NCBI GenBank assembly: GCA_013178005.1
Contig: JABLXL010000023.1
Coordinates: 1 to 64,000, forward strand
Reading direction: 5' to 3'
Origin: Actinomycetota bacterium
Lineage (GTDB): Bacteria; Actinomycetota; Geothermincolia; Geothermincolales; RBG-13-55-18
Length of the DNA: 64,000 bases
Each line of letters begins with the position of its first letter. Position 1 is the stretch's first letter. Shown in pieces: positions 36,230 through 58,046 of this stretch. Below the pieces are notes generated by a model. That model searched no databases. It had not been told where the DNA came from and saw only the letters and a list, made by a program, of their open reading frames with translations. The position numbers and the translations under genes were made by a program.

Positions 36230-36663
36230 TCAGGGACGCGGCCGCCTCGTTGTGGTAGCATAGAAACAGGAGCGGATCAACGGGCCCGACCCTGCGCGTC
36301 GAAGCCGCGCGTTATCGTTGAGCCAACACTTCGATAAAGGGAACCGTTTTCCGAGGGTGGACGCAACGCCCCGGCCCCGGGGAAGGGGACTGCGAAAGCC
36401 CAAGGTAGGTGCCCACCTGCGAGGGCGCAGGTTCATAGATAGCGGTGGGGACGGCAGGGTGGAGCCCTTATTGTTCCCGCAGTTTCCTTTGTTGCCGGCC
36501 GCGGAATCCCCCGGCCGGGATCGAGACGTCGGGGATCGACCCTCCTGCTCCTCGGGGGACCGCCACCGGCTGGGAAAGCTTCCATATATGCGCCGGCGGA
36601 GGAGCGTTAAGGCGTTGGCGACGGTGTGAGGCGCGAAGGCCGCATGAGCGGGGGCGGACCGGG
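36230..36663 (+). other. Intergenic region between the acetate module and rarA
   Basis: About 434 bp without a supported gene. An in-frame extension of rarA upstream to 36445 exists, but its composition and the lack of family similarity speak against it. No terminator or strong promoter was seen. Confidence 0.35.
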
Positions 36664-39451: not shown

Positions 39452-42094
39452 TTGAGAAGCGAGGAGATAAGGAGGCGTTTCCTGGAGTTCTTCCAGGCCA
39501 GGGAACACAGGGTGGTCAAGAGTTCCTCCCTGGTGCCCGACGATCCCACCCTGTTGTTGACCAACGCCGGCATGGTGCAGTTCAAACCATATTTCCTGGG
39601 GAGCGCCAGGCCGGAGTTCACGCGCGCCACCACCTGCCAGAAATGCGTGCGAACCACCGACATCGAAAAGGTCGGGCACACCGCCCGCCACCTCACCTTC
39701 TTCGAGATGCTGGGCAATTTCAGCTTCGGCGATTATTACAAGGAAAAGGCCATACCGTGGGCCTGGGAGTTCCTCACCGTCGAGATGGGCCTGGATCCCG
39801 GGCGCATGTACTGCTCCGTGTTCGAGGAGGACGACGAGGCATACGATATCTGGAGGGACGTCGTGGGGGTGCCCCCCGAGCGCCTGGTGCGGCTGGGGGA
39901 GAAGGACAACTTCTGGGATATGGGCACCACCGGGCCCTGCGGTCCCTGCTCGGAGGTGCTCTACGACCAGGGGGAGGAGTTCGGCTGCGGGGGCGCCGAT
40001 TGCCGGCCCGGATGCGACTGCGATCGCTACCTGGAGCTGTGGAACCTGGTATTCATGCAGTTCGACCGCGACCAGGACGGGAACCTCCACCCCCTGCCAG
40101 CCAAGAACATCGACACCGGACTTGGCCTGGAGCGCCTTGCCTCGGTGCTGCAGGGGGCGGCGAACAACTTCGAGACCGACACCCTGGCGGCGGTGGTTGA
40201 AGCCGCCTCGGACCTTTCCGGGGTCGCCTACGGCGGCGAGGGTGACATCTCCTTGAAGATCGTCGCCGACCACTCCCGCGCCATGACCTTCCTGGTGGGC
40301 GACGGCGTTCTCCCCTCCAACGAGGACCGGGGCTACGTGCTGAGGAGGATCGTCCGCAGGGCGGTGCGGCACGGCAGGCTCCTGGGCATAGGCGAGATCT
40401 TCCTGCCGCGCATGGTGGAGGTGGTCATAGAGACCATGGGAGGCGCCTACCCCGAGCTCAAGCAGAACGCGGCCTTCATCACCGCGATCGTGCGCAGCGA
40501 GGAGGAGCGCTTTTCCCACACCCTGCGCGGCGGCCTGGCTTACCTGGAGGAGGCCGTGGCGGATCTGGCGCAAAAGGGAAAAACGGAGATCCCGGGAGAG
40601 GTAGTGTTCCACCTCCACGACACCCTGGGATTCCCCCTGGAGCTCACGCGCGAGCTGGCCCGCGAGAAGGGGTTGTCCCTGGACGAGGGGGGCTTCGAGG
40701 AGCTCATGGAGGAGCAGCGGCGCAGGGCAAGGGCGGCGCGTGTGGAGGAGGGATATTCCGCGTCGGTGCCCGAGGTCTATTCCGAGGTGCTGGACAACTA
40801 CGGGGAGAGCCTGTTCACGGGATACGAGAAGGTGGAGGAGGAGGCGCGGGTGGTAGCCCTGGTCAGCGGCGGCCGGGTGGTCCCCGAGGCCTTCGAGGGG
40901 GACGAGGTGGAGGTGATCCTGGACCGCACCCCCTTCTACGGCGAGATGGGCGGACAGGTGGGCGACACCGGCGCCATCGTCGCGGCCGAGGGCGAGGTCG
41001 AGGTTACGGACGCCGTGAGGCCGGCGCCGGGGTTGATCTCCCACCGATGCCGCGTGAAGCGGGGGAAGTTGCGCGCGGGCGATGAGGTGACGGCGCGCAT
41101 AGACGCGGAAAGGCGCGACGCCATCCGCAGGAACCACACCGCCACCCACCTCCTCCACTGGTCCCTGCGCCAGGTGCTGGGCGAGCACGCCAAACAGGCG
41201 GGCTCCCTGGTGGACCCGAAGCGCCTGCGCTTCGACTTCACCCATTTCGGACCCCTGTCGCGGGAGGAGCTGGCGCGGGTTGAGGAGCTCGCCAACCGCA
41301 GGATACTCGAGGACCTCCCCGTGCGCGCCTACGTCACCACCTACGAGTACGCGACCAGCATCAACGCCATAGCCCTCTTCGGCGAGAAGTACCAGGACCA
41401 TGTGAGGGTGGTGGAGGTGGACGAGATCAGCCGGGAGCTGTGCGGCGGGACCCACGTGGGCCGGACGGGGGAGATCGGATTGCTGATCATCACCTCGGAG
41501 GGAGGCATCGGCGCCAACATGCGCCGCATAGAGGCGGTAACGGGAATGGAGGCGTACCGCCTCTTCCGTGAGCGCCGGGAACTGCTGGAGGAGACCGCGT
41601 CCGCGCTGAAGACCGATACGGCGAGGATCCCCGAGCGCGTCGCCAGGCTGCAACAGCGGATCAAGGAGTTGGAGGGGGAGCTGAGGAAGCGCGAGCGGGG
41701 AGAGCTTTCCGCCCTCGCCGGAACGGAAACGGCCTGGCGTGAGGAGGAGCTGCCGCAGGGGCTGGTGATGGCGGCGGCGATTCCGGACCTTTCCCCTCGC
41801 GAGCTAAGGGAACTCGCCGAACATACCCTTTCCGCCCGCGGCGCCAAGGCGGTGGGGATCGCCTCCGTGCAGGGGGGTAAGGCCAACATGGTGATAGCCT
41901 TGGGCAAAGACGCCCTCGAGGCGGGCCTGGACGCGGTGGAGCTGGTCAGGAAGTGCGGGCGTCTGCTGGGCGGAGGTGGAGGCGGCAGGTCGGACATGGC
42001 CGTGGGCGGAGGAGGACGGCCGGAGGGAGTCGAGGAGGCCCTGGAGCTCTTCCTGGAGGAGATGAGATCAGCGCTGAAAGGGCGAGATGCGTAG
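39452..42094 (+). CDS. alaS: Alanyl-tRNA synthetase
   Basis: Class II synthetase with editing, 880 residues. The start MRSEEIRRRFLEFFQAREH is standard. Aminoacylation blocks include LTNAGMVQFKPYFLG and TGPCGPCSEVLYD. The editing zinc site is NHTATHLLH plus CGGTHVGRTGEIG. The C-terminal C-Ala domain has a glycine-rich GGGGGGRSDMAVGGG. TTG start after GGGAGGAAGG. Overlaps ruvX by 8 bases; alaS-ruvX-mltG is a common order. The 262 bp before alaS hold no recognisable T-box or gene. Confidence 0.97.
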   Translation: MRSEEIRRRFLEFFQAREHRVVKSSSLVPDDPTLLLTNAGMVQFKPYFLGSARPEFTRATTCQKCVRTTDIEKVGHTARHLTFFEMLGNFSFGDYYKEKAIPWAWEFLTVEMGLDPGRMYCSVFEEDDEAYDIWRDVVGVPPERLVRLGEKDNFWDMGTTGPCGPCSEVLYDQGEEFGCGGADCRPGCDCDRYLELWNLVFMQFDRDQDGNLHPLPAKNIDTGLGLERLASVLQGAANNFETDTLAAVVEAASDLSGVAYGGEGDISLKIVADHSRAMTFLVGDGVLPSNEDRGYVLRRIVRRAVRHGRLLGIGEIFLPRMVEVVIETMGGAYPELKQNAAFITAIVRSEEERFSHTLRGGLAYLEEAVADLAQKGKTEIPGEVVFHLHDTLGFPLELTRELAREKGLSLDEGGFEELMEEQRRRARAARVEEGYSASVPEVYSEVLDNYGESLFTGYEKVEEEARVVALVSGGRVVPEAFEGDEVEVILDRTPFYGEMGGQVGDTGAIVAAEGEVEVTDAVRPAPGLISHRCRVKRGKLRAGDEVTARIDAERRDAIRRNHTATHLLHWSLRQVLGEHAKQAGSLVDPKRLRFDFTHFGPLSREELARVEELANRRILEDLPVRAYVTTYEYATSINAIALFGEKYQDHVRVVEVDEISRELCGGTHVGRTGEIGLLIITSEGGIGANMRRIEAVTGMEAYRLFRERRELLEETASALKTDTARIPERVARLQQRIKELEGELRKRERGELSALAGTETAWREEELPQGLVMAAAIPDLSPRELRELAEHTLSARGAKAVGIASVQGGKANMVIALGKDALEAGLDAVELVRKCGRLLGGGGGGRSDMAVGGGGRPEGVEEALELFLEEMRSALKGRDA

Positions 42095-42539
42095 CATGGG
42101 CTTGGACATCGGGCGTCGCCGCATCGGCGTTTCCATCTCCGATCCCCTGGGGATAAGCGCCTCGCCGCTGGAGGTGCTGCGGGACCTGGATCCGCAGGGA
42201 TTGCGACGCTACGTGGCGGAGAAAGCGGCGAGCGAGGTTATCGACACCGTGGTGGTGGGACTGCCCCTGACCCTTTCGGGGCGCGAGGGCGAGCAGGCGC
42301 GGGAGACACGCGGGTTCGCGCAGGCCCTGGAGGGACTGGAGGGGATAAAGGTGGTTCTCTGGGACGAGCGCCTTAGCACCGTGGAGGCCAGGCGGAGGCT
42401 GGGAGAGGCAGGAAAGCCGGCACGGGGGGGCGCGGACGCCGAGGCCGCCGCGGTGATCCTGCAGTCTTACCTGGAAAGCAAGCGCGCCGCCGGGGCGGGG
42501 GAAGAGGATATTGCGGGAGACGAGGACGGGCAGAGCTGA
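42087..42539 (+). CDS. ruvX: Putative pre-16S rRNA nuclease RuvX/YqgF
   Basis: RNase H-like fold protein of 150 residues. The first catalytic aspartate is in GLDIGRRRIGVSISDP, and a further acidic site lies in VLWDERLSTVEARRRL. Family members process the 5' end of 16S rRNA. The start overlaps the alaS stop; mltG in turn starts inside the ruvX end, so three genes are translationally linked. Confidence 0.93.
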   Translation: MRSMGLDIGRRRIGVSISDPLGISASPLEVLRDLDPQGLRRYVAEKAASEVIDTVVVGLPLTLSGREGEQARETRGFAQALEGLEGIKVVLWDERLSTVEARRRLGEAGKPARGGADAEAAAVILQSYLESKRAAGAGEEDIAGDEDGQS

Positions 42540-43557
42540 AAGGACCCGGAGGGCGGCCGCGCGCAGGCGCAAGGCGCTCGTGATCACGCTGTGCGTTTGC
42601 CTGGCGATGATCGCGCTCACGGCAGTGCTGATAGCCCATTACTTCTTTCCCTCGCGTGGAGACCAACCGGTAAAAGTCACCATAGAGGAGGGCGATTCCG
42701 CTGCGGCCATCGCGGAAAAGCTGCACCGTGAGCGGATCATAACCTCGGCCACCATTTTCCGAGCCCTCGCCTGGTTGCAGGGCAAGCAGGGAAAGTTCAA
42801 GCCGGGCAGGTACACCTTCTACACGGGCATGCGCTTCGGGGAGGTGTTCGATATGCTCGAAGCAGGGCCGCAGCACCAGGTGCGCCTGACCATTCCGGAA
42901 GGGCTCACCGTATCCCAGACCGCCGAGCGGGTGGCGGGCGCCATGGATGTAAGCGCGGAGGATTTCCTTTGCGCCGCCGCGGAGGGGGGTTACGATCTGC
43001 CCCTCTTGCCTCCGCAAAACGCGGGCAATCTGGAGGGATTCCTCTTCCCCAAAACCTACGATTTACCTGCCGACGCCAGGGCGCGGGAAGTCATCGAGAC
43101 GCTGCTGAATCAGTTCAAGGTGGAGACTTCCGGCCTGGACTGGGATAGGGCTGGCGAGTTGGGGTTAAACCCCTACCAGGTGCTCATCGTGGCCTCGCTC
43201 ATCGAACGCGAAGTGGTTCTGGACGCCGAGAGGCCCCTGGTCGCGGCGGTGATATATAACCGCCTTCGCAAGGACATGCTCCTCCAGATCGACGCCACGG
43301 TACAGTACGCGCTTCCGGAATGGAAGGAAGTGCTCACCTACGAGGACCTCAAGGTCCAGTCCCCCTACAATACCTACCTGCATAAGGGGCTGCCTCCCGC
43401 CCCCATATGCAGTCCGGGGCTCGCGAGCATCATGGCAGCATTGGAGCCGGCCGAGGTCGATTATCTCTTTTACGTTGCCACGGGTGACGGCGGCCATTTC
43501 TTCACCGCTGATTACGACGAATTCCTGCGCGTGAAGGAAGAGGTGCAGGGAGACTGA
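42511..43557 (+). CDS. mltG: Endolytic murein transglycosylase MltG
   Basis: Membrane-anchored lytic transglycosylase terminating glycan strands, 348 residues. One N-terminal helix (ALVITLCVCLAMIALTAVLI) follows a basic stretch. The catalytic region has VASLIEREV, YNRLRKDMLLQIDATVQYAL, and SPYNTYLHKGLPPAPICSPG. TTG start after GGAAGAGG. In related genomes mltG is usually followed by aroE; here 10.2 kb intervene. Confidence 0.94.
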   Translation: MRETRTGRAERTRRAAARRRKALVITLCVCLAMIALTAVLIAHYFFPSRGDQPVKVTIEEGDSAAAIAEKLHRERIITSATIFRALAWLQGKQGKFKPGRYTFYTGMRFGEVFDMLEAGPQHQVRLTIPEGLTVSQTAERVAGAMDVSAEDFLCAAAEGGYDLPLLPPQNAGNLEGFLFPKTYDLPADARAREVIETLLNQFKVETSGLDWDRAGELGLNPYQVLIVASLIEREVVLDAERPLVAAVIYNRLRKDMLLQIDATVQYALPEWKEVLTYEDLKVQSPYNTYLHKGLPPAPICSPGLASIMAALEPAEVDYLFYVATGDGGHFFTADYDEFLRVKEEVQGD

Positions 43558-44249: not shown

Positions 44250-44735
44250 TTGGAGGACGCCGAGACGTTGGCTGACCGCCTGCGCGCCCTTTCCGAGGCC
44301 ATCGCCGTATTCGACCAGGCGGGTGGGGAGGTGACCGGCAGGTCCACCCCCCAGCTCATGTACTTCGCCGGCAAGGACCTCGGGAAGAGGGAAGCCGCGG
44401 CCTACGACGCCACCGACGACCTGGAAAGGGCGTTGAAGTGGACCTTCCGCGGCTCCCCGGAGGTGTGGAAGGTGACCCTGTGGAAAAACCAGGAAGACGA
44501 TGATTTCTGGGTGTACGAGGTGGAGGAGATGTTCATCCGCCTCCTTTTCGAGCGTTGCCCGATAAGGACGGCGTGCCTGGGATCGGGGGTCGCCCTGGGG
44601 GGGGTCGCCTGCCAGACCATGCACGGATACGCAGCCGGCGTCCTGGAGAGCGTTTTCGGGCGCAAGGTGGACCTCTTCACCGAGCATGCCGGGCCGGGCT
44701 CCTGCTTGGTGATACTCAAGACCACTCTGGAGTGA
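44250..44735 (+). CDS. V4R (hydrocarbon-binding)-like domain protein
   Basis: A 161-residue soluble protein. Its C-terminal third resembles the V4R domain: a cysteine-containing core (CQTMHGYAAGVLESVFGRKV) followed by an acidic residue and GPGSCLVILKTTLE. V4R domains bind small hydrophobic ligands or tetrapyrrole intermediates and occur in sensors and BchJ-like proteins. The N-terminal half (ALSEAIAVFDQAGGEVTGRS) is not recognised. TTG start close to AGGAGG. Only three bases separate it from the hydrogenase-like small subunit, so it is probably part of that unit as sensor, chaperone or ligand carrier. The role is inference. Confidence 0.55.
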   Translation: MEDAETLADRLRALSEAIAVFDQAGGEVTGRSTPQLMYFAGKDLGKREAAAYDATDDLERALKWTFRGSPEVWKVTLWKNQEDDDFWVYEVEEMFIRLLFERCPIRTACLGSGVALGGVACQTMHGYAAGVLESVFGRKVDLFTEHAGPGSCLVILKTTLE

Positions 44736-44738
44736 GCC

Positions 44739-45635
44739 ATGAGGGTAGCGGTGCTCTCGCTGAGTTCGTGCACGGGATGCCAGTACGTGCTGCTCAGTCT
44801 GGAGGAATATTTCTATACCCTCATCGGGGAAAACGCCGTTTCCTACGCCCCCTTCCTGCTGGATCAGAAGGAGCTCCCGGAGGTGGATCTCCTCCTGCTG
44901 GAGGGGACGGTGAGGAACGGGGACGATTTCCGCAGGCTCAGGGAGGCGAGGCAGAGGGCGGAGAAACTGGTGGCCCTGGGGACCTGCGCCTGTTTCGGCG
45001 GAGTGCCCGGGCTGGCCGACATGGTCTCGGAGGAGAGGATGTTGAGGATGCGCTATGGCGAGGGGGCGACTTTCGAGCAGGCCCCGCCGGGCGTGAAGAG
45101 GCTCCTCCCCGTGGACGCCTACGTGAGCGTGGACGCGTTTCTCCCCGGTTGCCCTCCCGGCGAGGAGCTGCTCAAGGATTTTCTCAAGCTGGCCCTGTCC
45201 GGAAACCTGCCCTCGCGCATGGGGGCGACGGTATGCTCGGAATGCAAGGTGACCGCGAGCCCGCCATCACGGGATGGATTCCGCAGGCTGCTGTCCGCGG
45301 TGCCAGAGGACGGGAAGTGCTTGCTGGAACAGGGGTTCATCTGCATGGGTCCCCTCACCAGGGACGGGTGCGGCGCGCTCTGCCCCAGCTCCTTCGGAGT
45401 TCCCTGCGGGGGGTGCAGGGGGCCGTGCGATGAGGTCCTCCTCCCGCCCTTCCAGGACCCGTGCCTGGAAACGCTTCGCAGGCTGGCGAGGGCTACGGGC
45501 TTGAGCCCCAAGGCGGTGGGCGAGCAGGCGAAAGACCCCGCCCACTCCTTTTTCAAGTACTGTCTGGCCGAGCCGCTCCTGCGCAGGAGGCGCCCCGGAG
45601 GCACGGCCAGGTTCCTGTACCGGCTTGGCGAGTAG
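44739..45635 (+). CDS. [NiFe]-hydrogenase-type small subunit (group 3-like, iron-sulfur)
   Basis: A 298-residue electron-transfer subunit. The proximal cluster ligands are present: C11 and C14 in SSCTGCQY, C83 in GTCACFGG, and C138 in PGCPPGEE. Further cysteines in VCSECKV, then GFICMGPLTRDGCGALCP and PCGGCRGPCD, match the additional clusters of cytoplasmic group 3 enzymes such as MvhG and sulfhydrogenase delta. There is no twin-arginine signal, so it is cytoplasmic. The electron-transfer half therefore looks intact, in contrast to the altered large subunit downstream. A 185-bp gap precedes that gene. Confidence 0.85.
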   Translation: MRVAVLSLSSCTGCQYVLLSLEEYFYTLIGENAVSYAPFLLDQKELPEVDLLLLEGTVRNGDDFRRLREARQRAEKLVALGTCACFGGVPGLADMVSEERMLRMRYGEGATFEQAPPGVKRLLPVDAYVSVDAFLPGCPPGEELLKDFLKLALSGNLPSRMGATVCSECKVTASPPSRDGFRRLLSAVPEDGKCLLEQGFICMGPLTRDGCGALCPSSFGVPCGGCRGPCDEVLLPPFQDPCLETLRRLARATGLSPKAVGEQAKDPAHSFFKYCLAEPLLRRRRPGGTARFLYRLGE

Positions 45636-45820: not shown

Positions 45821-47140
45821 ATGGCGGACATGGTGATAAGCACCGTGACCAGGATCAGCGGCAACGCTTGCATAAGGCTGATCAGGGACGAGGCGGGGAA
45901 CCCCCGGGAGGCTTGGCTGCAGGCGTTCGGATACCGGGGATTCGACATCATGTTGAGGGGCTCGCACGCGGATAACCTCGTCCCGGTGGTTTCGCGCATT
46001 TGCGGAGGAGATTCCGTTTTTCACCAGGTGGCGGCGGCCAGGGCGGTGGAGGAATGCCTGGGGATGGAGGTCCCGGCGGAAGCCTCGAGGGTGCGGGAGC
46101 TCGCCATGTGGGGCCAGTTGCTGGAAAGGCATGCCGTGTCCCTGACCGTTCACAGTTTGCCCGACCTCCTGCTGCCATCATCCGATCCCAGCCTTCGCAA
46201 CATCATCAGCATCCACCGGGTTGACGAGGAGGTGGTGCGCAGGTTCATGGCCCTCAAATCCCTGGGGACGCTGGTGCTCCGAGAGGCGGGGGGAAAGGCG
46301 GTGCATGCCGTGAACGTGGTGCCCGGCGGAGTGGTCAGGGATATCGGGGAGGCGAAGAGGAGGGAGCTTCTCGAGAGGATGAGCGAGGCGCGCTCGCTGC
46401 TGGTGGAGACGGCACGGCTGATAAAACTTCTCTTGCGCAGGAACGAGGATGTGGTCGATTCCCTGGGAGAGGAATCGGCGCCCTGTCTGGCCTTGGCCCC
46501 TGGGGACGGGATCGGGCTGCTGGGCGGAAAGGCGGTCATAGCGGCGGGGGAGGGGGGTGAACGGGTTTCGCTGGTCCCGGGGGAATTGCGCGCTTCCATA
46601 GAGGAGAGCAACAGCGGCCATTCCCACATACGCGTGGCGCAGATAAAGGGGGTGGGGGACGTGCTGGTGGGGCCCCTGGCCCGCGTCAACGTGAACGGCG
46701 GTTACGGCAGCGAGCTGGCCGACGCCGAGTTGGAGGAGCTCAAGGCGCAATGGGGATTCCCGTTCAGGCGCGTCATGCTCGGGCATGCCGCCAGGATCCT
46801 GGAGATGATACACGCGTGGGAGATGATAAAGGGATTGCTCGAGGCTCCCCCCGGCGAGGGGCTGAGGGTGACGGCAACGCCGGCGGAGGGCGAGGGTACG
46901 GGGGTGGTGGAAGCCCCGGAGGGCCTGCTGGTTTACGGATTGCGGGTTGACGGCGACGGTTTGGTGAAAGGGCTTTCCATAACCGCCCCCCTGCAGTTCA
47001 ACATCGGCTCGCTGGAGCGGTGCCTCCTGGAAGGGGCGCGCAAAGCGGGCGCGGGGACGGAAGGGGAAGCGCGGGTGTCGGTGCTGCTGGAGACGGCGGC
47101 GCGCTCCTACGCCCCCTGCATCCCCTGTGCCCTGCACTAA
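45821..47140 (+). CDS. [NiFe]-hydrogenase large-subunit homologue with altered active site
   Basis: A 439-residue homologue of group 3 large subunits. The N-terminal metal motif reads RICGGDSVFH: C61 is kept, but the second cysteine of CGxC is D64, while H68 remains. The C-terminal motif is APCIPCALH with C433 and C436 kept and the usual Asp before it replaced by Ala. The early RIEGH motif is RISGN (S13, N15), and the catalytic APRG arginine is E367 in EAPEG. The protein ends exactly at the conserved histidine, so no maturation peptide exists. ATG 45821 follows GGAGAAAGG; a GTG at 45800 is possible. Normal H2 turnover seems doubtful. Confidence 0.8.
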   Translation: MADMVISTVTRISGNACIRLIRDEAGNPREAWLQAFGYRGFDIMLRGSHADNLVPVVSRICGGDSVFHQVAAARAVEECLGMEVPAEASRVRELAMWGQLLERHAVSLTVHSLPDLLLPSSDPSLRNIISIHRVDEEVVRRFMALKSLGTLVLREAGGKAVHAVNVVPGGVVRDIGEAKRRELLERMSEARSLLVETARLIKLLLRRNEDVVDSLGEESAPCLALAPGDGIGLLGGKAVIAAGEGGERVSLVPGELRASIEESNSGHSHIRVAQIKGVGDVLVGPLARVNVNGGYGSELADAELEELKAQWGFPFRRVMLGHAARILEMIHAWEMIKGLLEAPPGEGLRVTATPAEGEGTGVVEAPEGLLVYGLRVDGDGLVKGLSITAPLQFNIGSLERCLLEGARKAGAGTEGEARVSVLLETAARSYAPCIPCALH

Positions 47141-47166: not shown

Positions 47167-47457
47167 GTGGAAGAGATGGACCTGGCCGTGGCCCATATCC
47201 GCATAGACGGAGAGAGGTGCGTTTCATGCCGCGAATGCGTGGAGGTATGCCCGCAGACGCGGGACTCGCAGTACCCCGTCTATGCATGGGGCGAGGACGG
47301 GCTGCCCCGGGTGGCAAATCCCGAGAGCTGCATAAGGTGTCTGAGTTGCGAGGCGTTCTGTCGCGCCAGGGCAATCGTCGTGGATTCCGAGGATGGGCAG
47401 GGTTGGCGAATGCCCGGAGATCCCAGGGCGGAGACAAAGTGCAGGGCCATCTTCTAG
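47167..47457 (+). CDS. Dicluster 2[4Fe-4S] ferredoxin-like protein
   Basis: A 96-residue protein with two cluster motifs: C18-x2-C-x2-C-x3-CP (CVSCRECVEVCPQ) and C55-x2-C-x2-C-x3-C (CIRCLSCEAFCRA). A lone C92 lies near the end. The GTG start at 47167 is six bases after AGGGAGG. It follows the large-subunit gene by 26 bp, so it is the likely electron partner of the hydrogenase-like complex. The second cluster lacks the usual proline after its last cysteine. Confidence 0.85.
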   Translation: MEEMDLAVAHIRIDGERCVSCRECVEVCPQTRDSQYPVYAWGEDGLPRVANPESCIRCLSCEAFCRARAIVVDSEDGQGWRMPGDPRAETKCRAIF

Positions 47458-47966: not shown

Positions 47967-48320
47967 TTGCCCGATCTGAGGAAGGTCCTGGAGGAACTGG
48001 TGGCTACGGGTACCGTCCGCGCGGCGCTGGTGGTGGGCAGAGACGGTTTCATTATCGAGACTGCCGGCGAGGACGCCAGCCAGCTCGAGGCCGTGGGAGC
48101 CATCGCTCCCAGTTCGCTGGGGGCGGCGGAGGTCATCGGCCTGGAACTCGCCCAGGGCCCCATGGCGCAGGCGATGTTCGAGTTCGAGAAGGGTGCCATA
48201 TTGATGAGCGCCGTGGGTGCGGACGCCATACTGGTATCCATCCTGCCCGCGGGAGCCAACCTGGGAAAGGCCAGGTATGACATCCGTAAATACCTCCCCG
48301 CCATAGAGGCCGCGCTGTGA
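47967..48320 (+). CDS. Roadblock/LC7 domain protein (first of three)
   Basis: A 117-residue alpha/beta protein of the roadblock/MglB type. Visible are VRAALVVGRDGFIIETAGED as the first strand pair and ILMSAVGADAILVSILPAGANLGKARYDI as the second half, the standard layout. Such proteins dimerise and bind or regulate Ras-like GTPases. TTG start after CAGGAGGTGG. It is the most different of the three copies and the most CvnB/MglB-like. Confidence 0.85.
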   Translation: MPDLRKVLEELVATGTVRAALVVGRDGFIIETAGEDASQLEAVGAIAPSSLGAAEVIGLELAQGPMAQAMFEFEKGAILMSAVGADAILVSILPAGANLGKARYDIRKYLPAIEAAL

Positions 48321-48384
48321 GAGAGGTACGGATCGCAACGGCGCTTCAAGCGCCGTGGTAATGGCGTTCTTACAGGAGGTGGCA

Positions 48385-48759
48385 GTGGCTTCGGAGAGAA
48401 TCGAGAAGATGAACGCCGTCCTGAGAAACCTGAGGTCAAGCCTCCAGGAGATAGAGGCCGCGGTGCTGATAAGCTCCGATGCCATGGCGCTGGCGTCGGA
48501 TATCTCAGACGAGGCGGACGAGGAGATGATAGGCGCCCTGTCCGCTTCCGTGCTCAGCATGGGTGAGAGGGCGGCCCGCGACCTGAAGAGGGGCAACCTG
48601 GAGCAGGTCTATATAAAAGGGGACCAGGGATACCTGTTGCTCGTACAGTGCGGCCCGGACGCCCTGCTGTCGCTTCTGGTAAAGCCGGAGGCGAAGATGG
48701 GGGTGGTGTTCATGGAGGGCAAGCGCACCGCCGAAGAGCTGGCAAAGCTGTTCGAATGA
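48385..48759 (+). CDS. Roadblock/LC7 domain protein (second of three)
   Basis: A 124-residue roadblock protein. Core segments are IEAAVLISSDAMALASDIS, SASVLSMGERAARDLKRGN, and LSLLVKPEAKMGVVFMEGKR. AGGAGGT at 48374-48380 sets the GTG start at 48385. Its order of segments matches the third copy (shared SMGER/SLGER and VY/VF..G..GY blocks), so the two probably arose by duplication. Likely partner of the downstream GTPase. Confidence 0.83.
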   Translation: MASERIEKMNAVLRNLRSSLQEIEAAVLISSDAMALASDISDEADEEMIGALSASVLSMGERAARDLKRGNLEQVYIKGDQGYLLLVQCGPDALLSLLVKPEAKMGVVFMEGKRTAEELAKLFE

Positions 48760-48821
48760 ACGCGTTTGGGTCGAGCATAGGTTCAAGATCGTTTCGGATA
48801 CTCAGGTAGGAGGTCTGATAC

Positions 48822-49220
48822 TTGGCGGAATCCAGGGAGGAAAGACTTCGCAACGCTTTGAGCGAGCTGGTTTCCAGGTCCGCGGAAGTGGACGCGGCGG
48901 CGGTGGTGAGCATGGACGGCCTGGTCATGGCCTCGGTGCTGCCGAATACCCTGGAGGAGGACAGGTTGGGCGCCATGTCGGCGGCCCTGTTGAGCCTGGG
49001 GGAAAGGACATCGGAGGAACTGGGCAGGGGCGAACTGGCACAGGTTTTCGTGGAGGGCAATTCCGGCTACGTTTTCCTTATGGCGGCCGGCGAGGACGCG
49101 GTGCTCACGGCGCTGGTGCGCAAGGGAAGCAAGCTCGGGCTGGTGCTATATGACGTAAAGGGAGCCGCCAAAAAGATCGCCGAGATCATAAAATCGGAAT
49201 TCCGTATAGAGTACGAATAA
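48822..49220 (+). CDS. Roadblock/LC7 domain protein (third of three)
   Basis: A 132-residue paralogue of the preceding gene, with VDAAAVVSMDGLVMASVLP, MSAALLSLGERTSEELGRGE, and LVRKGSKLGLVLYDVKG. AGGAGGT at 48808-48814 lies seven bases before the TTG start. The three copies may form different homo- and hetero-dimers. The next gene encodes a PATAN scaffold. Confidence 0.83.
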   Translation: MAESREERLRNALSELVSRSAEVDAAAVVSMDGLVMASVLPNTLEEDRLGAMSAALLSLGERTSEELGRGELAQVFVEGNSGYVFLMAAGEDAVLTALVRKGSKLGLVLYDVKGAAKKIAEIIKSEFRIEYE

Positions 49221-49396: not shown

Positions 49397-52300
49397 ATGG
49401 CGCTAAAGGGAAGCCTGAAGGATTTCAGCATCCCCGATCTCTTCCAGCTGCTCAACTTCGGCAAGAAGAACGGGACGCTCAACCTTACCCGCGGCCAGGC
49501 GAGGGGATATATCTGTTTCCGCAACGGCGAGGTCTTCTTCGCCACCACCAACTGGAAACGCCAGTCCCTGGGGTTGAAGCTCCTGAACGCCGGGATAATC
49601 ACCAAGGCGCAACTGGAGGAAGCCCTGCAGCTCCAGAAGACCTCCGCGAGGGGCCAGAGGTTGGGCCAGCTCCTCATCCGGCTCGGTTACATAACCAAGG
49701 AGCAGCTGGAGGTCTTCGTCGAGGAGCAGATACAGGACGCGGTGTTCGAGATGCTGCGCTGGACGGACGGCGAGTTCGACTTCCAGCCGGGGGTGGTGTT
49801 CCCGGAGGAGGACATCGGGCTCTCCATCAGCACCGAGGAGCTGATCATGGAGGGTTCGCGCCGCCTGGACGAGTGGAACCGCATCGAGAAGAAGATCCCC
49901 AACCTCAACGTGGTGTTCAAGATGACTTCCATGCAGGGCAGGGAGGCGGCCCAGATCAGCCTCACCCCGGAGGAGTGGATGGTGCTCACCCATATAGACG
50001 GCGAGAAGACGGTGCGCCAGATCGTGGAGCTCACGGGGATGAGCACTTTGCACACCTGCAAGATACTCTACGGGCTCATCGGGTCCGGCCTGCTGGAGAA
50101 CGTCACCCCCGAGGAGGAGGAGAGGGAGGCGGACCGCAGGCTGGAGCGTCTCGCTGAGGAGCTGGAGAAGGCGGAGACCGAGCCCCGGGATATGGAAGCG
50201 CTGCCCGCGGAAGGGCTCGAGGAGTATGTATTAGAGCCCGGCGCGCAGGAGCTGGAGGCTGCCGAGGAAACCCTCGTCGTGTCCCCGGAGTCCGCGCGTG
50301 CGACGGCGCCGGAGGAGGCAGCCGCGCCGGCGACCATGGAGGTGAGAGAACTTGATGAGGCCACCTCGCGCATAGCGGACGCGGTGGGCGAAGCCCTGGG
50401 GATCATGCAGATGGAGGAATACCCGGAAGCCAGGGAGGAAGCCGTGCCGGCAGCGGCGGGAGTGGAAACTCCGTCACCGGGCGCTCTCGTGAGGGAGGAG
50501 TCATGGCGGGAACAAGGCGCCGTGGCGGTCCCGGAGGAATCGGAAGAGGCGGCGGTCGGCCTGGAGGAGGAGATCGCCGGAGAAGAGGCGCCGCCCGCTG
50601 CCCGCGAACCCGCGGCGGAGGAGCTGGAAATGGCCCTCGGGGAGGCGGCGGTCGGCCTGGAGGAGGAGATCGCCGGAGAAGAGGCGCCGCTCGCTGCCCG
50701 CGAACCCGCGGCGGAGGAGCTGGAAATGGCCCTCGGGGAGGCGGTTTCTTCCGGGGAGGCCGAGGCGGTGGTGATAGAGCTGGGGGATGAAGGCGAGCCG
50801 CTTATCCTCATCGAGGAGGAGACACCCGCGGAGGTGCCGGGGACGCGTGCCGAGGCGATGGTGTCGCGCGGCTCGGAAGAGGCGGCACGGGAGGGCCAGG
50901 AGCCGGAGGCCGCGTGGGAAGCAGAGGAAGAGCCCCAGGCGGAGATTGTCGAACTCAGAGATGCCCGGAGCGTGCTCGAGGAGGAGATAAGGAAGGAGAC
51001 CGAGCGCATACGGGAGATGAAAGAAGCGGCGATGGAGGAAACCCTGGAGGCAGAGCAGGTTCTCCGCATAGAGAGCAAGGAGGCGGAGTTAGAGGAGCTC
51101 AAGAGGAAGATAAGCGAGCTCCTGCCTGAGGGCGTGAGCCTCGACGAGGCGGGGGAGACCGAAACAGAGGAAGCGACCCCCGGGAAAGCAAGGACAGGAA
51201 CACAGGAAGACCTCATGACGCGCGAGAGCGTGGAGGCGAGGGCCGCCAAGAGGGCGTATCTGGAGAAGAAGTACGGCAAGATTGAGAGACTGGCCGGGGA
51301 AGAGGAGATAGCGGAACTTGAACCCGAGGAGATACCCGAGGAGTGGAGGAGCCATCTCGAGAAGATATCGCCCGTGGAAAAGAAACCCGCCGAGCAGGTG
51401 GAGCCCCGGATTCCCGCAAGGGCGGCCATCGACCCCGAGAAAATACTGGGAGGAGCGTTCCGGGGAGGCGGCACGGCGGTGGAGCCCAGCCAGGAGCCGC
51501 CTGCGAGCGCGGAACCGTCGGAAAGCGTCGCGGAGGCGGTCACGCTGCGGCTACCCTTAAAAGAGCTCGAGGAGAAAGTAGGTTCCGTAACGGCGCCCGG
51601 AGGAGACGGGGGACGTCAGGGACTTGACTTGCTCGAGAGCGTTATGCTGGAAGATATATCCATAGATAGCAATAAGGGAACGGCTATCCTCGATGCTTCA
51701 GCGCTCGGCGCTGTGAGTAGCGTTGTGGGTTCCGTGGCGGCGGAAGAAGCTGCGGAACAGGATAGAGGCGCCGGCGTGGGCATCGAGGTGCTGGAAAGCG
51801 TAATGCTTGAGGACATTCCGAAAGCAGAGCCCGAGCAGTCGTTGGAGGACTTGCTGCCTGCCGGAGGAGAGGGCTTGGAGGCGGGTGGCGAGAGCTCGGA
51901 GACCTTCTTCGATATGGAAGAAGTGCCCAGCGGCTCTATCGCTTTGGACGGAGGCGGTGAGGAGACCTTGGCCGTTCCCCATATGTCGGAGATCGAGGAG
52001 CTCGAGCGGGAGATCCTTGAGGCGGAGATGGTTCCGGCCGCGCCGGACCTCTCCCATCTCGACGAGGAGATCGCCGCCCTGGAAGAGGAGATCTTTTCCG
52101 CAGCGGGAGGTGTTGAAGCAGAGGAACTTGCCCCTGAGCCCGCCCCGCAGGCACCTCCCTTCGTGGAGCCCGCCGCAGTGGCCCCCGTGCCCGAAACCGC
52201 CCCGGCTCCCCCGGCCGAGGAGGCCGTAACCCAGCAACCCATAGACATCCTGGAGAAGCCTGGTGGAGACGGGAGGCGGGGAGGCGCAGGCCGCGCCCGA

Positions 52301-52435
52301 AGCGGCCCGGGCCCCAGAGCCCGCCCCGCAGGCACCTCCCTTCGTGGAGCCCGCCGCAGTGGCCCCCGTGCCCGAAACCGCCCCGGCCCCCCCGGCCGGG
52401 GAGGCCGTAACCCAGCAACCCATAGACATGCTTGA
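49397..52435 (+). CDS. DUF4388/PATAN-domain protein with long acidic region; frame ends out of register
   Basis: The N-terminal 100 or so residues are a DUF4388/PATAN domain ([20 protein letters not shown]), with an embedded [21 protein letters not shown] segment like those of pilus ATPase N-termini. A helical and winged-helix-like part runs to about residue 250. The rest is a very acidic Glu/Ala/Pro-rich region with a 32-residue tandem repeat, a charged helix around 520-580, and two copies of ESVMLEDI. The frame's last 60 residues (after DILEK near 52257) turn Arg/Gly-rich and look like wrong-frame sequence. The true continuation is the frame at 52263-52844, so a one-base shift is suspected. 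Confidence 0.75.
50549..50740 (+). repeat. Tandem 96-bp in-frame repeat inside the PATAN protein gene
   Basis: Two adjacent copies encode a 32-residue unit beginning [15 protein letters not shown] and ending ELEMALGE. The copies differ by about one base (Pro to Leu). In-frame expansion of the acidic linker seems to be recent. Confidence 0.85.
52136..52430 (+). repeat. Near-identical ~115-bp duplication, offset 181 bp, spanning the frameshift
   Basis: The segment encoding [20 protein letters not shown] through TQQPID occurs at about 52136-52251 and again at about 52317-52430. The offset of 181 is one more than a multiple of three. The first copy reads correctly in the long frame and the second only in the next frame. 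Confidence 0.8.
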
Positions 52436-52844
52436 ACGGCTGCAGGCCGTAGGGATAGAGGAGGAGCACGTCGCGGAAAGGGAGGAAAGAGGGCCGGAAA
52501 TGGGCGAAATAGCCGGGGAAGCCCTCATGGGCGGAGTGATGGAAACCGAAGCGCCTCGGGTGGAAGCTGCATCTGGCGAGAAAATCGCGGAACCGGAGGC
52601 ATACGAGGAAGAGGCCGCGGGCTTCGACATGGAAAGCTATTCACTGGAGCGGGAACTGGCCGAGCTCACCGGCGCGGCGGTGCCGCAGCCTACCAAGAAG
52701 ATCAAGATCCCGGTGAAACCGAAAGGAGAAGTGGTGGAATCGGATGAATTAGATAAGGGGAAGCCGGTTCCCAAGGTCAAGAGGGACAAGGCGGTCACCA
52801 AGAGCCTGATCATGAGGATAATCGACGGCATCAAGAGATTGTAA
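52263..52844 (+). pseudogene. C-terminal part of the PATAN protein in the shifted frame
   Basis: This frame continues the acidic protein: it repeats the Pro/Ala unit, then a Glu-rich stretch, then a basic end ([15 protein letters not shown]) and an amphipathic C-terminal helix ([14 protein letters not shown]). Removing one base near 52258-52262 joins ILEK to [10 protein letters not shown] and gives a protein of about 1,148 residues. No ribosome site supports an independent start. It is either a real frameshift, a programmed one, or an assembly error in a repeat. The GTPase gene follows directly. Confidence 0.65.
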
Positions 52845-52859
52845 GGGGTGGATGACCAG

Positions 52860-53393
52860 TTGAGATCCTTCAAGATCGTCGTCACCGGGCCTTTCAGCGC
52901 GGGTAAGACCACGTTTATAAAGAGCATAAGCGAGATATCCATAGTCTCCACCGAGCGCGCCATCTCGGACTCCACGCGCAGAGTGAAGGCCGAGACCACC
53001 GTGGCCATGGATTTCGGAAGGATCACCATATCAAAGGACATCGTTCTCTACCTCTTCGGCACGCCGGGACAAGAACGCTTCGACTTCATGTGGCAGATCC
53101 TCTCCGAGGGTATGCTGGGGTACATCCTCATGCTGGACGCGAGCAGGCCGGAGACCTTCTCCGAGGGAAAGAGGATCCTGGAGTTCTTCGCCACCCTATC
53201 GGACGCTCCCTATGTCATCGGCGCCACCAGGATGCCCGATGGGGACCCCTCTCAAGCCATAGAGAGGATCAGGAAGGAACTCAACATCGACGGCGACATC
53301 CAGGTCATCCCCTGTAACGCCCTGGAGAAGGAGGACGTGAAGAAGGTCCTTCTGGGGTTGCTTTACGATATCCTGAAAACCCTGGACAAATAG
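52860..53393 (+). CDS. CvnD/MglA-like small GTPase (COG2229 type)
   Basis: A 177-residue Ras-like GTPase. The P-loop is TGPFSAGKTTFIKS (K16), followed by the family's TTVAMDFGRI and LYLFGTPGQERFDFMW. The usual NKxD guanine motif is replaced by TRMPDG, as in other members of this actinobacterial family. Streptomyces conservons pair such GTPases with roadblock proteins, and MglA acts with MglB in cell polarity. The TTG at 52860 is favoured by AAGGGGTGG; a GTG at 52848 would add four residues. It ends the unit of three roadblock proteins plus PATAN scaffold. Confidence 0.88.
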   Translation: MRSFKIVVTGPFSAGKTTFIKSISEISIVSTERAISDSTRRVKAETTVAMDFGRITISKDIVLYLFGTPGQERFDFMWQILSEGMLGYILMLDASRPETFSEGKRILEFFATLSDAPYVIGATRMPDGDPSQAIERIRKELNIDGDIQVIPCNALEKEDVKKVLLGLLYDILKTLDK

Positions 53394-53802: not shown

Positions 53803-54657
53803 ATGATGGAAATAGACGGGGGCACCGAGCTCACCGGCATCCTAGGTCATGACATCTCCTATACCTTGTCGCCCGCCATGCACAACGCCGCCTTTCGTCA
53901 CTACGGCCTGAACTGGGCATACCTACCCTTGCGCGTTGCTCCGGAGGGACTTGGAGCCGCCGTGGAGGGGCTGAGGGCGCTGGGTTTCCGCGGCTTCAAC
54001 GTCACCATCCCCCACAAGTTGAGGATAGCGGGGCTGGTGGACTGCCTGGAGGGCGACGCGGAGATGCTCGGGGCCGTCAACACCGTGGTGGCCGATAACG
54101 GCATGCTCGTGGGCTACAACACCGACGTCGAAGGCTTCCGCGCTTTCCTCCGCGAGCTGGGCGTCGACATCGGCGGCACAGCGGTCATGGTCATCGGGGC
54201 TGGCGGCGCGGCCAGGGCGGTGGCCTTGGCCGTGGCGAGGGAGGGAGTAGCCGAAATCCTGGTTGTTAACCGGACGTCCGAGAGGGCGGTTGAACTGGCG
54301 GAGGCGTTAAAGAAGGCGGTACCCTCGACCGAGATATCAGTAAGGAGCTTCGACCGCGAGGGCATGCACGGGGCGGGTGGATGCTCCCTCGTGGTGAACT
54401 GTACGCCCTTGGCGGAGATGGAAGACCTGCCGCTTGATCGCAGGGATTTTGCGCCGGGAACCTGGGCGGTGGACCTGAAATACGGCGAGCCCACGGGTTT
54501 TCTGCGCAAGGCGGAGTCATGGGGGGCCTTGACCGCGGGAGGAGAGGGCATGCTCCTGCACCAGGCGGGACTGTCCTTCCGCCTCTGGACGGGAAAGGAG
54601 CCGCCCCTGGAGGAGATGCGATCAGCGCTCCAGCGGGCGATCTCGGAGACGGCTTGA
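53803..54657 (+). CDS. aroE: Shikimate dehydrogenase
   Basis: NADPH-dependent reduction of 3-dehydroshikimate, 284 residues. The substrate site is LSPAMHNAAF, the catalytic lysine lies in NVTIPHKLR, the aspartate in GYNTDVEGF, and the cofactor loop is VIGAGGAARAVALA. A second ATG at 53806 is also possible. aroC begins 9 kb downstream, with the pilus cluster in between. The pilB frame touches its stop. Confidence 0.95.
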   Translation: MMEIDGGTELTGILGHDISYTLSPAMHNAAFRHYGLNWAYLPLRVAPEGLGAAVEGLRALGFRGFNVTIPHKLRIAGLVDCLEGDAEMLGAVNTVVADNGMLVGYNTDVEGFRAFLRELGVDIGGTAVMVIGAGGAARAVALAVAREGVAEILVVNRTSERAVELAEALKKAVPSTEISVRSFDREGMHGAGGCSLVVNCTPLAEMEDLPLDRRDFAPGTWAVDLKYGEPTGFLRKAESWGALTAGGEGMLLHQAGLSFRLWTGKEPPLEEMRSALQRAISETA

Positions 54658-54677
54658 CGGAGACGGGGACGACGCTC

Positions 54678-56345
54678 ATGCAGAAGCCGAAGAAGGAAAA
54701 ACTAGGCCAGATACTGATCAAGAACCGCATCATCACCGAGGAGCAACTCGAGCAGGCGCTGGAGCGCCAGCGGGAGACGGGCGAGTCCCTGGGCAGGGTG
54801 CTCATCGACCTGAAGATGGTGAGCGAGGGGGCCCTCACCTCCATCCTGGCGCGGCAGATAGGCCTCAAGTACGTAGACCTCGCCAACTACGACGTGGACA
54901 TAGCCGCATCCTCTCTGGTCGATGCCGAGGTGGCGCGTCGCTATTCACTCATCCCCGTTGGCTTCGAAGGGGACAAGCTGCTGGTGGCCATGGCCGACCC
55001 CACCAACGTTTTCGCGCTGGACGACATACGCATCATGACCGGCATGGACATCGAGCCCCTGGTGGCCACCAGGGAGGACATCGTATCTGCCATTAACCGT
55101 TACTGCCGCACCGAAACCGACCTCGACATCAGCACCGATGATATGACCAAGGACGTTGCTGAGACGGGTGAAGAGGCGGAGGCCGACGACGCCCCCATCG
55201 TGAAGTACGTCAACCTGCTCATAAGCGAGGCGGTGAACGACCGCGCCAGCGACGTGCACATCGAGCCCATGGAGAACGACGTTCGCATCCGCTACCGCAT
55301 TGACGGCGTGCTGCACGAGATAAGGAGGAACCCCAAGGCCATACATTCCGGGGTGGTGGCGAGGATAAAGGTCATGGCGGACATGAACATCGCGGAAAAG
55401 CGCCTGCCCCAGGACGGGAGGGCCTCGGTGGATATCCTCGGCAAGCCCGTCGATCTGCGCGTGGCCTCCCTGCCCACCATTCACGGGGAAAAGATCGTCA
55501 TGCGCATCCTGGACAAAAGCGCCTCTTTGATGAGCCTGGAGGAACTTGGCTTCAGCGAGGACCTGCTGGAGAAGTACGCCCGCAGCTTCCATAAACCCTA
55601 CGGCACCATCATGGTCACGGGTCCCACGGGCAGCGGGAAGACCACCACCCTCTACGCCACCCTGAACGTGCTCAACTCCATTAAACTCAACATCATCACC
55701 GTGGAAGACCCCGTGGAGTACCGCCTGCCCCTGATCAACCAGGTGCAGGTACATTACAAGGCGGGGCTGACCTTCGCTTCCGCCCTGCGCTCCATCCTGC
55801 GCTGCGACCCGGATATCGTGATGATCGGCGAGATCAGGGACCCGGAATCGGCGCAGATCGCCATCGAGTCCGCCCTCACCGGTCACCTGGTGCTATCCAC
55901 CCTCCACACCAACGACGCGCCCAGCGCCCTCACCCGCCTGCTGGAAATGGGGATCGAGCCCTTCCTCATCGCCTCCGCGGTGGACTGCGTAAGCTCCCAG
56001 AGGCTGGCGCGCCGGCTGTGCGAACGCTGCAAGGAGGCCTACGAGCCGGACCTGGAGTACCTTGAGAAGATAGGTTTTCCCTGGGACGAGAGGACGGACC
56101 AGGTGCTGTTCAGGCCACGCGGCTGTCCCGCATGCAACAACACCGGCTTCAAGGGCAGGGTCGGAATCTACGAGGTGCTCGAGGTGACGGAGAACATCGA
56201 ACACCTGGTGGCGAGAAATGCGCCGCACGTGGAGATTGCGGAGATGGCGAGGTCGGAGGGGATGAGGACTCTGCGGGATGAGGGCTTCATGAAGGTAAAG
56301 GAGGGGTTGACCTCCATCGACGAGGTCCTCAGGGTCATCATGTGA
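54678..56345 (+). CDS. pilB: Type IV pilus extension ATPase PilB
   Basis: Hexameric motor for pilin polymerisation, 555 residues. The N-terminal GspE-type domain has KLGQILIKNRIITEEQLEQ. The ATPase core has VTGPTGSGKTTTLYATLN, an Asp box, and Walker B in MIGEIRDPESAQIA. The zinc-binding tetracysteine CERCKE...CPACNNTG is kept. A TTG at 54654 overlapping the aroE stop as TTGA could add eight residues and couple translation. pilT and pilC follow. Confidence 0.95.
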   Translation: MQKPKKEKLGQILIKNRIITEEQLEQALERQRETGESLGRVLIDLKMVSEGALTSILARQIGLKYVDLANYDVDIAASSLVDAEVARRYSLIPVGFEGDKLLVAMADPTNVFALDDIRIMTGMDIEPLVATREDIVSAINRYCRTETDLDISTDDMTKDVAETGEEAEADDAPIVKYVNLLISEAVNDRASDVHIEPMENDVRIRYRIDGVLHEIRRNPKAIHSGVVARIKVMADMNIAEKRLPQDGRASVDILGKPVDLRVASLPTIHGEKIVMRILDKSASLMSLEELGFSEDLLEKYARSFHKPYGTIMVTGPTGSGKTTTLYATLNVLNSIKLNIITVEDPVEYRLPLINQVQVHYKAGLTFASALRSILRCDPDIVMIGEIRDPESAQIAIESALTGHLVLSTLHTNDAPSALTRLLEMGIEPFLIASAVDCVSSQRLARRLCERCKEAYEPDLEYLEKIGFPWDERTDQVLFRPRGCPACNNTGFKGRVGIYEVLEVTENIEHLVARNAPHVEIAEMARSEGMRTLRDEGFMKVKEGLTSIDEVLRVIM

Positions 56346-56706
56346 GTAAGCAATCTGGTAGGATATGGCATCGAGGCAAGCACGGGCGAGGATAGAAGCT
56401 ATTTGGATTTAGAAGGCGCGCGAGAGGGCCGATTCTCGTGGAAGAATGATCGAACAGATGGCAAGGGCGCACAGGGGACGATGATCGAAGTCGGGGCACC
56501 GCGTCCGCGGGGTTGTGTTGATGGGTTTGGATGGAAGAAAATAGGGATGGCTGGGCGTGAGAGTCCGGGAGTCAGGCTGTGGCGGGGGATTCCGGGAGAC
56601 CGAAGGTCCAGTGATATTTCATGGATAGGGAACTGGCCATGAAGCGTGAGAGGCGCGCGGGCCGGTTTCGGCGGAGAGGGTTTACGCAAGGAGAGGAGGA
56701 ACGGCA
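56346..56706 (+). other. Intergenic region between pilB and pilT
   Basis: About 361 bp with no supported gene. No clear promoter or terminator was found. GAGGAGG at 56694-56700 is the ribosome site of pilT. Confidence 0.35.
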
Positions 56707-57774
56707 TTGGCTGTGAAGCTCGATATCAATGAGTTGCTGGAAGAGGTGCTGGTGAGGGGAGCCTCGGACCTCCATATAACCGTGGGGGCGCCCCCCGTTA
56801 TGCGCATCAACGGAGTGCTGGTGAGGCTGGAAGAATATCCCAGGCTAACTTCAAATGACACCAGGGATATGGTCTACAGCATCCTCACCGCCCGTCAGAG
56901 GGAGCAGCTGGAGAGCAACCTGGAATACGACCTCTCCTATTCCGTGCCGGGGAGCGCCCGCTTCCGCGTAAACGCGTACTTCCAGCGCAACAGCATCGGG
57001 GCGGCGTTCCGCATCATCCCTTACCGTATAAAGACCATTCAAGAGCTGCATCTTCCGCAAGTGCTGGAGGAGTTCTGCATGCTGCCGCGCGGGTTCATCC
57101 TCGTCACCGGCCCCACGGGGCAGGGGAAGTCCACCACCCTGGCGGCGATGATCAACGTCATCAATGAGACGCGGAACCTGCACATCATCACCGTCGAGGA
57201 TCCCATCGAATTCCTGCACGTGCACAAGAAATGCATCGTCAACCAGCGCGAGGTAGGTGGAGACACCCATTCCTTCTCCAACGCGCTCAAATACGTGTTG
57301 CGCCAGGACCCGGACGTGATCCTGGTGGGGGAGATGAGGGACCTGGAGACCATTTCCACAGCACTCACTGCAGCGGAGACGGGACACCTGGTCTTCGCAA
57401 CCCTGCATACCCAGGACGCTCCCCAGACCATTGACCGCATCATCGACGTGTTCCCCACCTATCAGCAGCAACAGGTGCGCATGCAGCTAGCGGGCACCAT
57501 CCAGGCCATCGTGACCCAGCAGCTTCTGCCCACCAAGGATGGTCAGGGACGCATCCCCGCGGTGGAGGTGATGGTGGCCACGTCCGCCATCCGCAACCTC
57601 ATCCGCGAGGCCAAAGCTCACCAAATATATTCCGCCATGCAGGCGGGAGGCCAGTACAAGATGCAGACCATGGATCACTCCATAGCTGCCCTTTACAAGC
57701 GGGGAATCATCAGCTACGAGGTGGCCATGGGTCGCTGCAACAACCGCGACGAGATGGTCAGGCTCATCGGATAA
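56707..57774 (+). CDS. pilT: Type IV pilus retraction ATPase PilT
   Basis: Motor that depolymerises pili for twitching, 355 residues. The Walker A is TGPTGQGKSTTLAAMI, the Asp box ITVEDPIEFLH, Walker B ILVGEMRDLETI, and the PilT-specific motif AIRNLIREAKAHQI is present. This last motif distinguishes it from PilB-like paralogues. TTG start six bases after GAGGAGG. Presence of PilT predicts retractile pili. Confidence 0.96.
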   Translation: MAVKLDINELLEEVLVRGASDLHITVGAPPVMRINGVLVRLEEYPRLTSNDTRDMVYSILTARQREQLESNLEYDLSYSVPGSARFRVNAYFQRNSIGAAFRIIPYRIKTIQELHLPQVLEEFCMLPRGFILVTGPTGQGKSTTLAAMINVINETRNLHIITVEDPIEFLHVHKKCIVNQREVGGDTHSFSNALKYVLRQDPDVILVGEMRDLETISTALTAAETGHLVFATLHTQDAPQTIDRIIDVFPTYQQQQVRMQLAGTIQAIVTQQLLPTKDGQGRIPAVEVMVATSAIRNLIREAKAHQIYSAMQAGGQYKMQTMDHSIAALYKRGIISYEVAMGRCNNRDEMVRLIG

Positions 57775-58046
57775 CGGGTTGATTCTTTCAGGCGTACGAA
57801 GTTGGTCCTCCGGGCGATTTAAAAAAAGGGGGTCGAGGACATAAAGGAAAAGTGGTTGATTAACGATATATTACAAAAAGCGTAAATTAAATAAAAGCAA
57901 AGTGGTCTGGAGATAAAAAAGATAAAAGCTGTTGGATAAGGTAAAAGAGTAAACGAGTTGACATTTCTGTTGAAAAAGTAATATTTTCATGACATGGGCG
58001 GCGTGAAGTGTAAGGCCGAGGGGGCTGAGCAAAGGAGCGTGCGGTC
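57775..58046 (+). promoter_or_regulatory. A-rich strand-biased region with candidate pilC promoter
   Basis: From about 57820 to 57990 the + strand is strongly A/purine-rich, with repeated GATAAAA-like words, in an otherwise GC-rich genome. TTGACA at 57958-57963 is followed by TAATAT (57979-57984, spacing 15) or TATTTT (57982-57987, spacing 18). AAGGAG at 58032-58037 serves the pilC TTG start. Confidence 0.5.

Follow-up and report, generated by a model that had tools for sequence, protein, structure and literature searches.

The DNA analysed here, referred to as the window, is a stretch of 64,000 nucleotides assigned to Candidatus Geothermincolia (Actinomycetota), near Ca. Solincola. It contains four forward-strand genes that encode, in this order, a predicted V4R/Bet3-fold protein, a hydrogenase-like small subunit, a hydrogenase-like large subunit and a ferredoxin, and the order is the same in every locus long enough to contain them. 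The large-subunit frame (45821-47140, forward strand) translates into 439 amino acids followed by a stop and begins at the same Met as its orthologues; the reverse strand of this region holds no gene and is interrupted by a stop. The product is MvhA-like: its best PDB sequence match is MvhA of the Hdr-Mvh complex (5odc_F, E 1.5e-53), and its top NCBIfam model is VhuA (E 2.4e-55), at 187.8 bits against an equivalog cut-off of 800. An AlphaFold (AF2) model built on a 23-row alignment (pLDDT 89.8) superposes on 5odc_F at TM 0.95, indicating that the overall MvhA-like fold is kept. However, the two CxxC pairs and the second-sphere Glu, Asp and Arg expected of a catalytic [NiFe]-hydrogenase are not all present. 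The window protein reads R11-I-S-G-N15, C61-G-G-D64 with H68, A365-P-E-G368 and A431-P-C433-I-P-C436-A-L-H439, with the stop directly after and no C-terminal extension, so that the first motif (L1) is CGGD and the second-sphere residues are Ser, Ala and Glu. The original prediction had read CGGD for CGxC, APC for DPC, RISGN for RIEGH and E367 for the Arg of APRG, all of which are exact on the translation, and the canonical residues of 5odc_F align at the substituted positions.

The small subunit (44739-45635, forward strand) is MvhG/VhuG-like, carries ligands for three [4Fe-4S] clusters and matches the VhuG model NF045875 at E 2.7e-52, under the curated cut-off. It is complete, as predicted: its twelve cluster cysteines are invariant in all window-type members and in two canonical small subunits, and the C11-x-x-C14 spacing is intact. 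By descent and fold, the large and small subunits are homologues of those of group 3 [NiFe]-hydrogenases. The fourth gene (47176-47457, forward strand) encodes a 2[4Fe-4S] ferredoxin with Fer4 domains, whose eight cysteines are invariant across 19 homologues and which is also present in genomes G016, G002 and G019. The first gene (44250-44735, forward strand; start codon uncertain) is separated from the small-subunit gene by 3 bp in the window, and this gap measures 2-4 bp across most of the window's family. Its 161-residue product reaches no Pfam family at threshold; V4R scores 12.4 bits against a gathering cut-off of 31 and appears below the cut-off in nine of 23 members. The AF2 model (pLDDT 92.2) has its top Foldseek matches, at probability 1.00, among the sensor domains of MopR, PoxR and DmpR, TRAPP Bet3/TPC6 and the V4R protein MJ1460, and the predicted fold is that of the V4R/XylR_N/TRAPP Bet3 superfamily. 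While this fold is shared, the protein is 10-17% identical to the superfamily, has a Cys/His set of its own and is encoded by a gene coupled to hydrogenase-like subunits. Because C103, C121, H125 and C152 are invariant, it may carry a metal site.

The quartet sits between alaS-ruvX-mltG and a series of Roadblock, DUF4388, GTPase, aroE and pil genes. The alaS, ruvX and mltG genes (39452-43557, forward strand; TIGR00344, TIGR00250, TIGR00247) form the upstream end of the conserved block and lie outside the claimed complex; a 6S RNA is found at 36281-36469 (forward strand; Rfam RF00013, 58.2 bits). On the other side, after a gap of 510 bp from the ferredoxin gene in the window, come three forward-strand genes for Roadblock/LC7 proteins, of which the first (47967-48320; Pfam Robl_LC7, E 2.2e-12) occurs in the window's order only, the second (48355-48759; E 2.8e-15) is syntenic and the third (48822-49220; E 1.1e-18) is present in 28 of the 31 class genomes. 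The three proteins (47967-49220) are 97-100% identical within the genus at a dS of 0.4-1.0, with a dN/dS of 0.00-0.02, and are far more constrained than alaS. They are followed by a PATAN-type DUF4388 protein with a repetitive acidic middle (49397-52844, forward strand; E 5.7e-38), whose gene spans the open reading frames 49397-52435 and 52263-52844. The frame change near 52260 lies inside near-identical repeats (QQPIDILE / QQPIDML) and reflects either an assembly error or repeat-length variation. An MglA/Ras-like small GTPase comes next (52848-53393, forward strand; ATP_bind_1 E 1.8e-15, Ras E 2.9e-6; TIGR00231), and the downstream genes thus include an MglA/MglB-type module in which a Ras-like GTPase and a Roadblock partner are encoded together. 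The aroE gene (53803-54657) lies ahead of pilB, pilT and pilC (54519-59273, forward strand; TIGR02538, TIGR01420, NF052607/TIGR02120), which are context outside the claimed complex. Scans for promoters and terminators gave no signal above that of shuffled sequences.

In Myxococcus and other bacteria, MglA acts with Roadblock proteins to govern motility and type IV pili (PMC4316618), which makes a signalling link between the quartet and its neighbours attractive. However, G030 and G023 contain the block of Roadblock, DUF4388 and pilus genes but no quartet, and G027 has its alaS-to-Roadblock part, likewise lacking the quartet. This makes the quartet a separable insert, and any signalling link is positional rather than obligatory; an obligate partnership of the quartet with the Roadblock/pilus block is excluded. 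The case of G023, which falls inside family f4, is most simply a loss of the quartet.

The Geothermincolia are actinobacteria from heat springs and the subsurface. The window-type large subunit is found in 24 of their 31 genomes, with an orthologue in 16 of the 18 genomes of the window's order, whereas G003 has a canonical group 3 enzyme in its place. The nearest named record, and the sole close relative in the contig scan, is Ca. Solincola daggyaiensis at 76% identity. In a maximum-likelihood tree, a branch with support 100/99 sets the 22 complete window-type members apart from 40 canonical group 3 relatives taken from G003 and other classes of the phylum. Since the window type forms its own clade and has neither mvhD nor hdr genes in its block, it does not belong to group 3c (Mvh) proper. 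Identity between the large subunits of family f1, to which the window belongs, and those of f4/f6 is down to 25-34%. The V4R-like partner gene was not detected in any of 366 sampled Actinomycetota genomes outside the class. Elsewhere in the phylum, a long-branch group 3-type large subunit (L141, G336:C89) carries DICVSC instead of DPCxxC.

Comparison of the motifs in the same 22 class members and 40 canonical relatives reveals a graded loss of catalytic residues. The Glu of RIEGH is gone in all 22 class members (replaced by S, N, M, Y, G, F, Q or P), as is the Asp of DPC (A, S, G, N or L instead), and not one has a residue beyond the last motif, whereas Glu and Asp are both retained in all 40 canonical relatives and the tail in 38 of them. 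The APRG Arg is kept solely in four members of f4. The second L1 cysteine, a bridging ligand in the hydrogenase family, is kept in f2, f4 and f6. In f1, all 14 genomes have Asp64 in its place and Glu367 in that of the Arg. The first L1 cysteine (C61), the L1 His and the first cysteine of the second motif, L2 (C433), are invariant, and the second L2 cysteine (C436) is missing in G029 alone. The large subunit of this genome (L116:9543-10868) terminates at NSCMV, without the last Cys and His; the three downstream frames contain neither a frameshifted remnant nor the lost CxxC, which excludes a frameshift. In a sub-branch formed by L034 and L035 (G007, G006), the motifs are RRCGVD and APCFFCA, the C-terminal His is absent and EGAEG replaces EAPEG.

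Judging from this alignment, the changes accumulated stepwise, since the second L1 cysteine is Asp in f1 but has stayed Cys in three further families. The first, class-wide losses were those of the RIEGH Glu, the DPC Asp and the C-terminal tail; the Arg and one bridging Cys went later. Thus, the Cys-to-Asp change that drew attention to the gene is genuine, but it was not the first change; it came late, within one family, in a protein that had already been altered. An isolated mutation or a sequencing error, the outcome that was to refute the original prediction, is excluded by the same Asp in 14 genomes.

Does the complex nevertheless receive a Hyp-made cofactor? HypD is encoded in 24 of the 31 class genomes, and full-length canonical large subunits are found in the same 24, the remaining seven having neither, so that the canonical enzyme fully accounts for where Hyp genes occur. 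The window-type gene coexists with HypD in 19 genomes and occurs without it in five (G010, G001, G002, G018 and G019), which also have no canonical large subunit and in which HypE stays below its cut-off (best 35-61 bits against 251.6). According to PMC9900092, HypD belongs to the scaffold for Fe(CN)2CO assembly, and these five genomes therefore cannot hold the standard site. Their completeness is 97%, 99%, 82%, 99% and 95%, respectively; the argument is built on genes missing from draft genomes, but a joint gap of several genes across several near-complete genomes is unlikely. Since the five belong to three families (f1, f2 and f4), they probably reflect three or more separate losses, and both Asp and Cys versions of the motif are among them. 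The window-type complex thus does not depend on Fe(CN)2CO as a catalytic [NiFe]-hydrogenase does, and the five HypD-free carriers are the strongest argument for this.

Among known systems, MvhAG/VhuAG (group 3c, Hdr-Mvh, 5odc) is the closest in subunit homology and fold, and shares with the window complex a three-cluster small subunit and a soluble nature. However, the window complex lacks the Glu gate, the DPC Asp, the APRG Arg, one bridging Cys and the C-terminal tail, has no adjoining mvhD or hdr genes, is distributed independently of Hyp and has additional V4R-fold and ferredoxin subunits. The membrane-bound sulfane reductase (MBS) and complex I likewise contain a hydrogenase-derived pair in which the NiFe site was lost through stepwise loss of cysteines while electron transfer was kept. 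Both belong to group 4 and are membrane-bound with antiporter subunits, whereas the block in the window has no membrane or antiporter subunit genes. In addition, MBS combines two cysteines with a three-Cys proximal cluster of shortened motif, while the window complex has three cysteines and an Asp with a normal proximal motif, and we do not count it as MBS- or complex I-like. In MBS two of the four cysteines are left, and the authors of that work trace a sequential loss towards complex I (PMC7684303), so partial cysteine sets are already known. According to the original prediction, all four cysteines disappear together in descendants of the complex I type. This is contradicted by MBS and also within the class, where two group-4/NuoD-like large subunits, L173 (G026:C2) and L174 (G019:C5), have RICARS replacing the L1 CxxC and CAAC in L2; they represent a second class lineage with three of four cysteines and the same bridging position missing.

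The reading that we favour, tentatively and at a little less than an even chance, is that Geothermincolia possess a soluble complex that descends from an MvhAG-like [NiFe]-hydrogenase of group 3, is no longer a hydrogenase and serves as a Hyp-independent Fe-S redox unit, perhaps a sensor. Its parts differ in strength. The window-type complex very probably does not carry out [NiFe] catalysis, and it is probable that the former NiFe pocket retains a metal site. The old pocket would hold a Hyp-independent metal or Fe-S centre, coordinated by three Cys and one Asp in the window and by four Cys in sister families. This centre would contact the proximal cluster of the small subunit and exchange electrons with all three clusters of that subunit and with the 2[4Fe-4S] ferredoxin. 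Less certainly, the V4R/Bet3-fold subunit may bind a ligand or a partner, and it is tempting to speculate that the quartet senses redox state or a ligand and signals to the Roadblock/MglA-like GTPase module and type IV pili. The position of the genes suggests such an output, which we regard as possible without considering it likely. It is rather doubtful that all elements hold at once, that is, a soluble redox sensor with a putative Cys3Asp metal or Fe-S centre and a Bet3/V4R adaptor that feeds a Roadblock/MglA-like switch on type IV pili. Several observations speak against the favoured reading: 19 of the 24 carriers have Hyp proteins, so that NiFe insertion is still formally possible there, the large subunit of G029 ends ahead of the last Cys, and both the quartet-free blocks and the 510 bp gap count against the signalling link. 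The original prediction offered three roles: an alternative metal centre, activity on some other substrate, or redox sensing. Any of these may apply; the altered site is confirmed, and the non-[NiFe] case has become stronger with the carriers lacking HypD and HypE.

It is possible, and nearly as likely as the sensor reading, that the complex is an enzyme acting on a substrate other than H2, with a rebuilt pocket beside a standard proximal [4Fe-4S] cluster. The ferredoxin would then donate the electrons, and the V4R protein would handle the substrate. The electron chain is complete, as seen from the cysteines of the small subunit and the ferredoxin. Moreover, loss of the NiFe site opened the pocket to other substrates in MBS, which reduces polysulfide, and in complex I, which reduces quinone (PMC7684303), and the V4R-fold domains in the MopR, PoxR and DmpR structures bind small aromatic ligands. 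However, with a normal C11-x-x-C14 the proximal cluster probably has its full set of ligands and no catalytic role of its own, unlike that of MBS, and the quartet contains no metabolic gene and points to no substrate that could be named. It is unlikely that the complex feeds electrons from ferredoxin or a metabolite into HdrABC via MvhD in the place of H2. While the small subunit is nearest to VhuG/MvhG, the partner of MvhD in methanogens, and MvhD (PF02662) occurs in 30 of the 31 class genomes, it is equally present in the quartet-free G023, G024, G028 and G030, it is not encoded in the adjoining block, and the quartet has its own ferredoxin. MvhD occurs in nearly all class genomes, whether or not they carry the quartet, and this excludes an exclusive MvhD/Hdr link.

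It is very unlikely that the complex is still an active [NiFe]-hydrogenase that uses Asp as an unusual ligand and relies for its maturation on the Hyp proteins that serve the canonical enzyme in the same genome. The Hyp-containing carriers would permit it, and the H2-sensing regulatory hydrogenases (RH/HupUV), whose large subunit likewise lacks the C-terminal extension, have a normal site (PMC7294309). Although they offer a precedent for a hydrogenase as a sensor, their site is the canonical Hyp-made NiFe(CN)2CO and they belong to a different phylogenetic group, whereas in the window protein the Glu gate, the DPC Asp and the Arg are all replaced, the gene is retained in the Hyp-free genomes, and the canonical enzyme suffices to account for the Hyp genes. 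Least probable is a decaying hydrogenase relic, to which the fast divergence between families and the truncated C-terminus of G029 might point, since within-genus comparisons (Nei-Gojobori) give a dN/dS of 0.09-0.24 for the large subunit, 0.10-0.18 for the small subunit and 0.08-0.10 for the V4R protein, against 0.11-0.15 for alaS and 0.13-0.21 for mltG, the frames are open in nearly all genomes, every Fe-S cysteine is kept, and D64 and E367 are fixed in the window's family. Substitution rates of this kind indicate that both hydrogenase-like subunits are under purifying selection and, together with the retained cysteines, exclude gene decay, as the original prediction had argued from the complete small subunit.

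Hydrogenase-derived redox complexes without a NiFe site are already known; what stands out here is a soluble group 3 lineage, the V4R and ferredoxin partners and a series of changes that can be traced. In the open-licence literature we found no prior description of the Geothermincolia quartet or of an inactive hydrogenase-like subunit of this type, and a survey of hydrogenases of related clades lists groups 1 and 3b-3d and leaves 'hydrogenase-like' proteins unmentioned (PMC7325909). A single bacterial class thus offers a graded natural series that shows how catalytic residues disappear from a soluble [NiFe]-hydrogenase whose electron wiring stays intact. The parallel case, that of MBS and complex I, is an ancient one and concerns membrane-bound enzymes, whereas here the intermediates survive in related genomes, some of them without Hyp machinery. 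Should the pocket contain another metal or a cluster, it would show what the fold is capable of without cyanide and CO ligands, and if the quartet signals to the GTPase, it would tie redox state to the control of pili.
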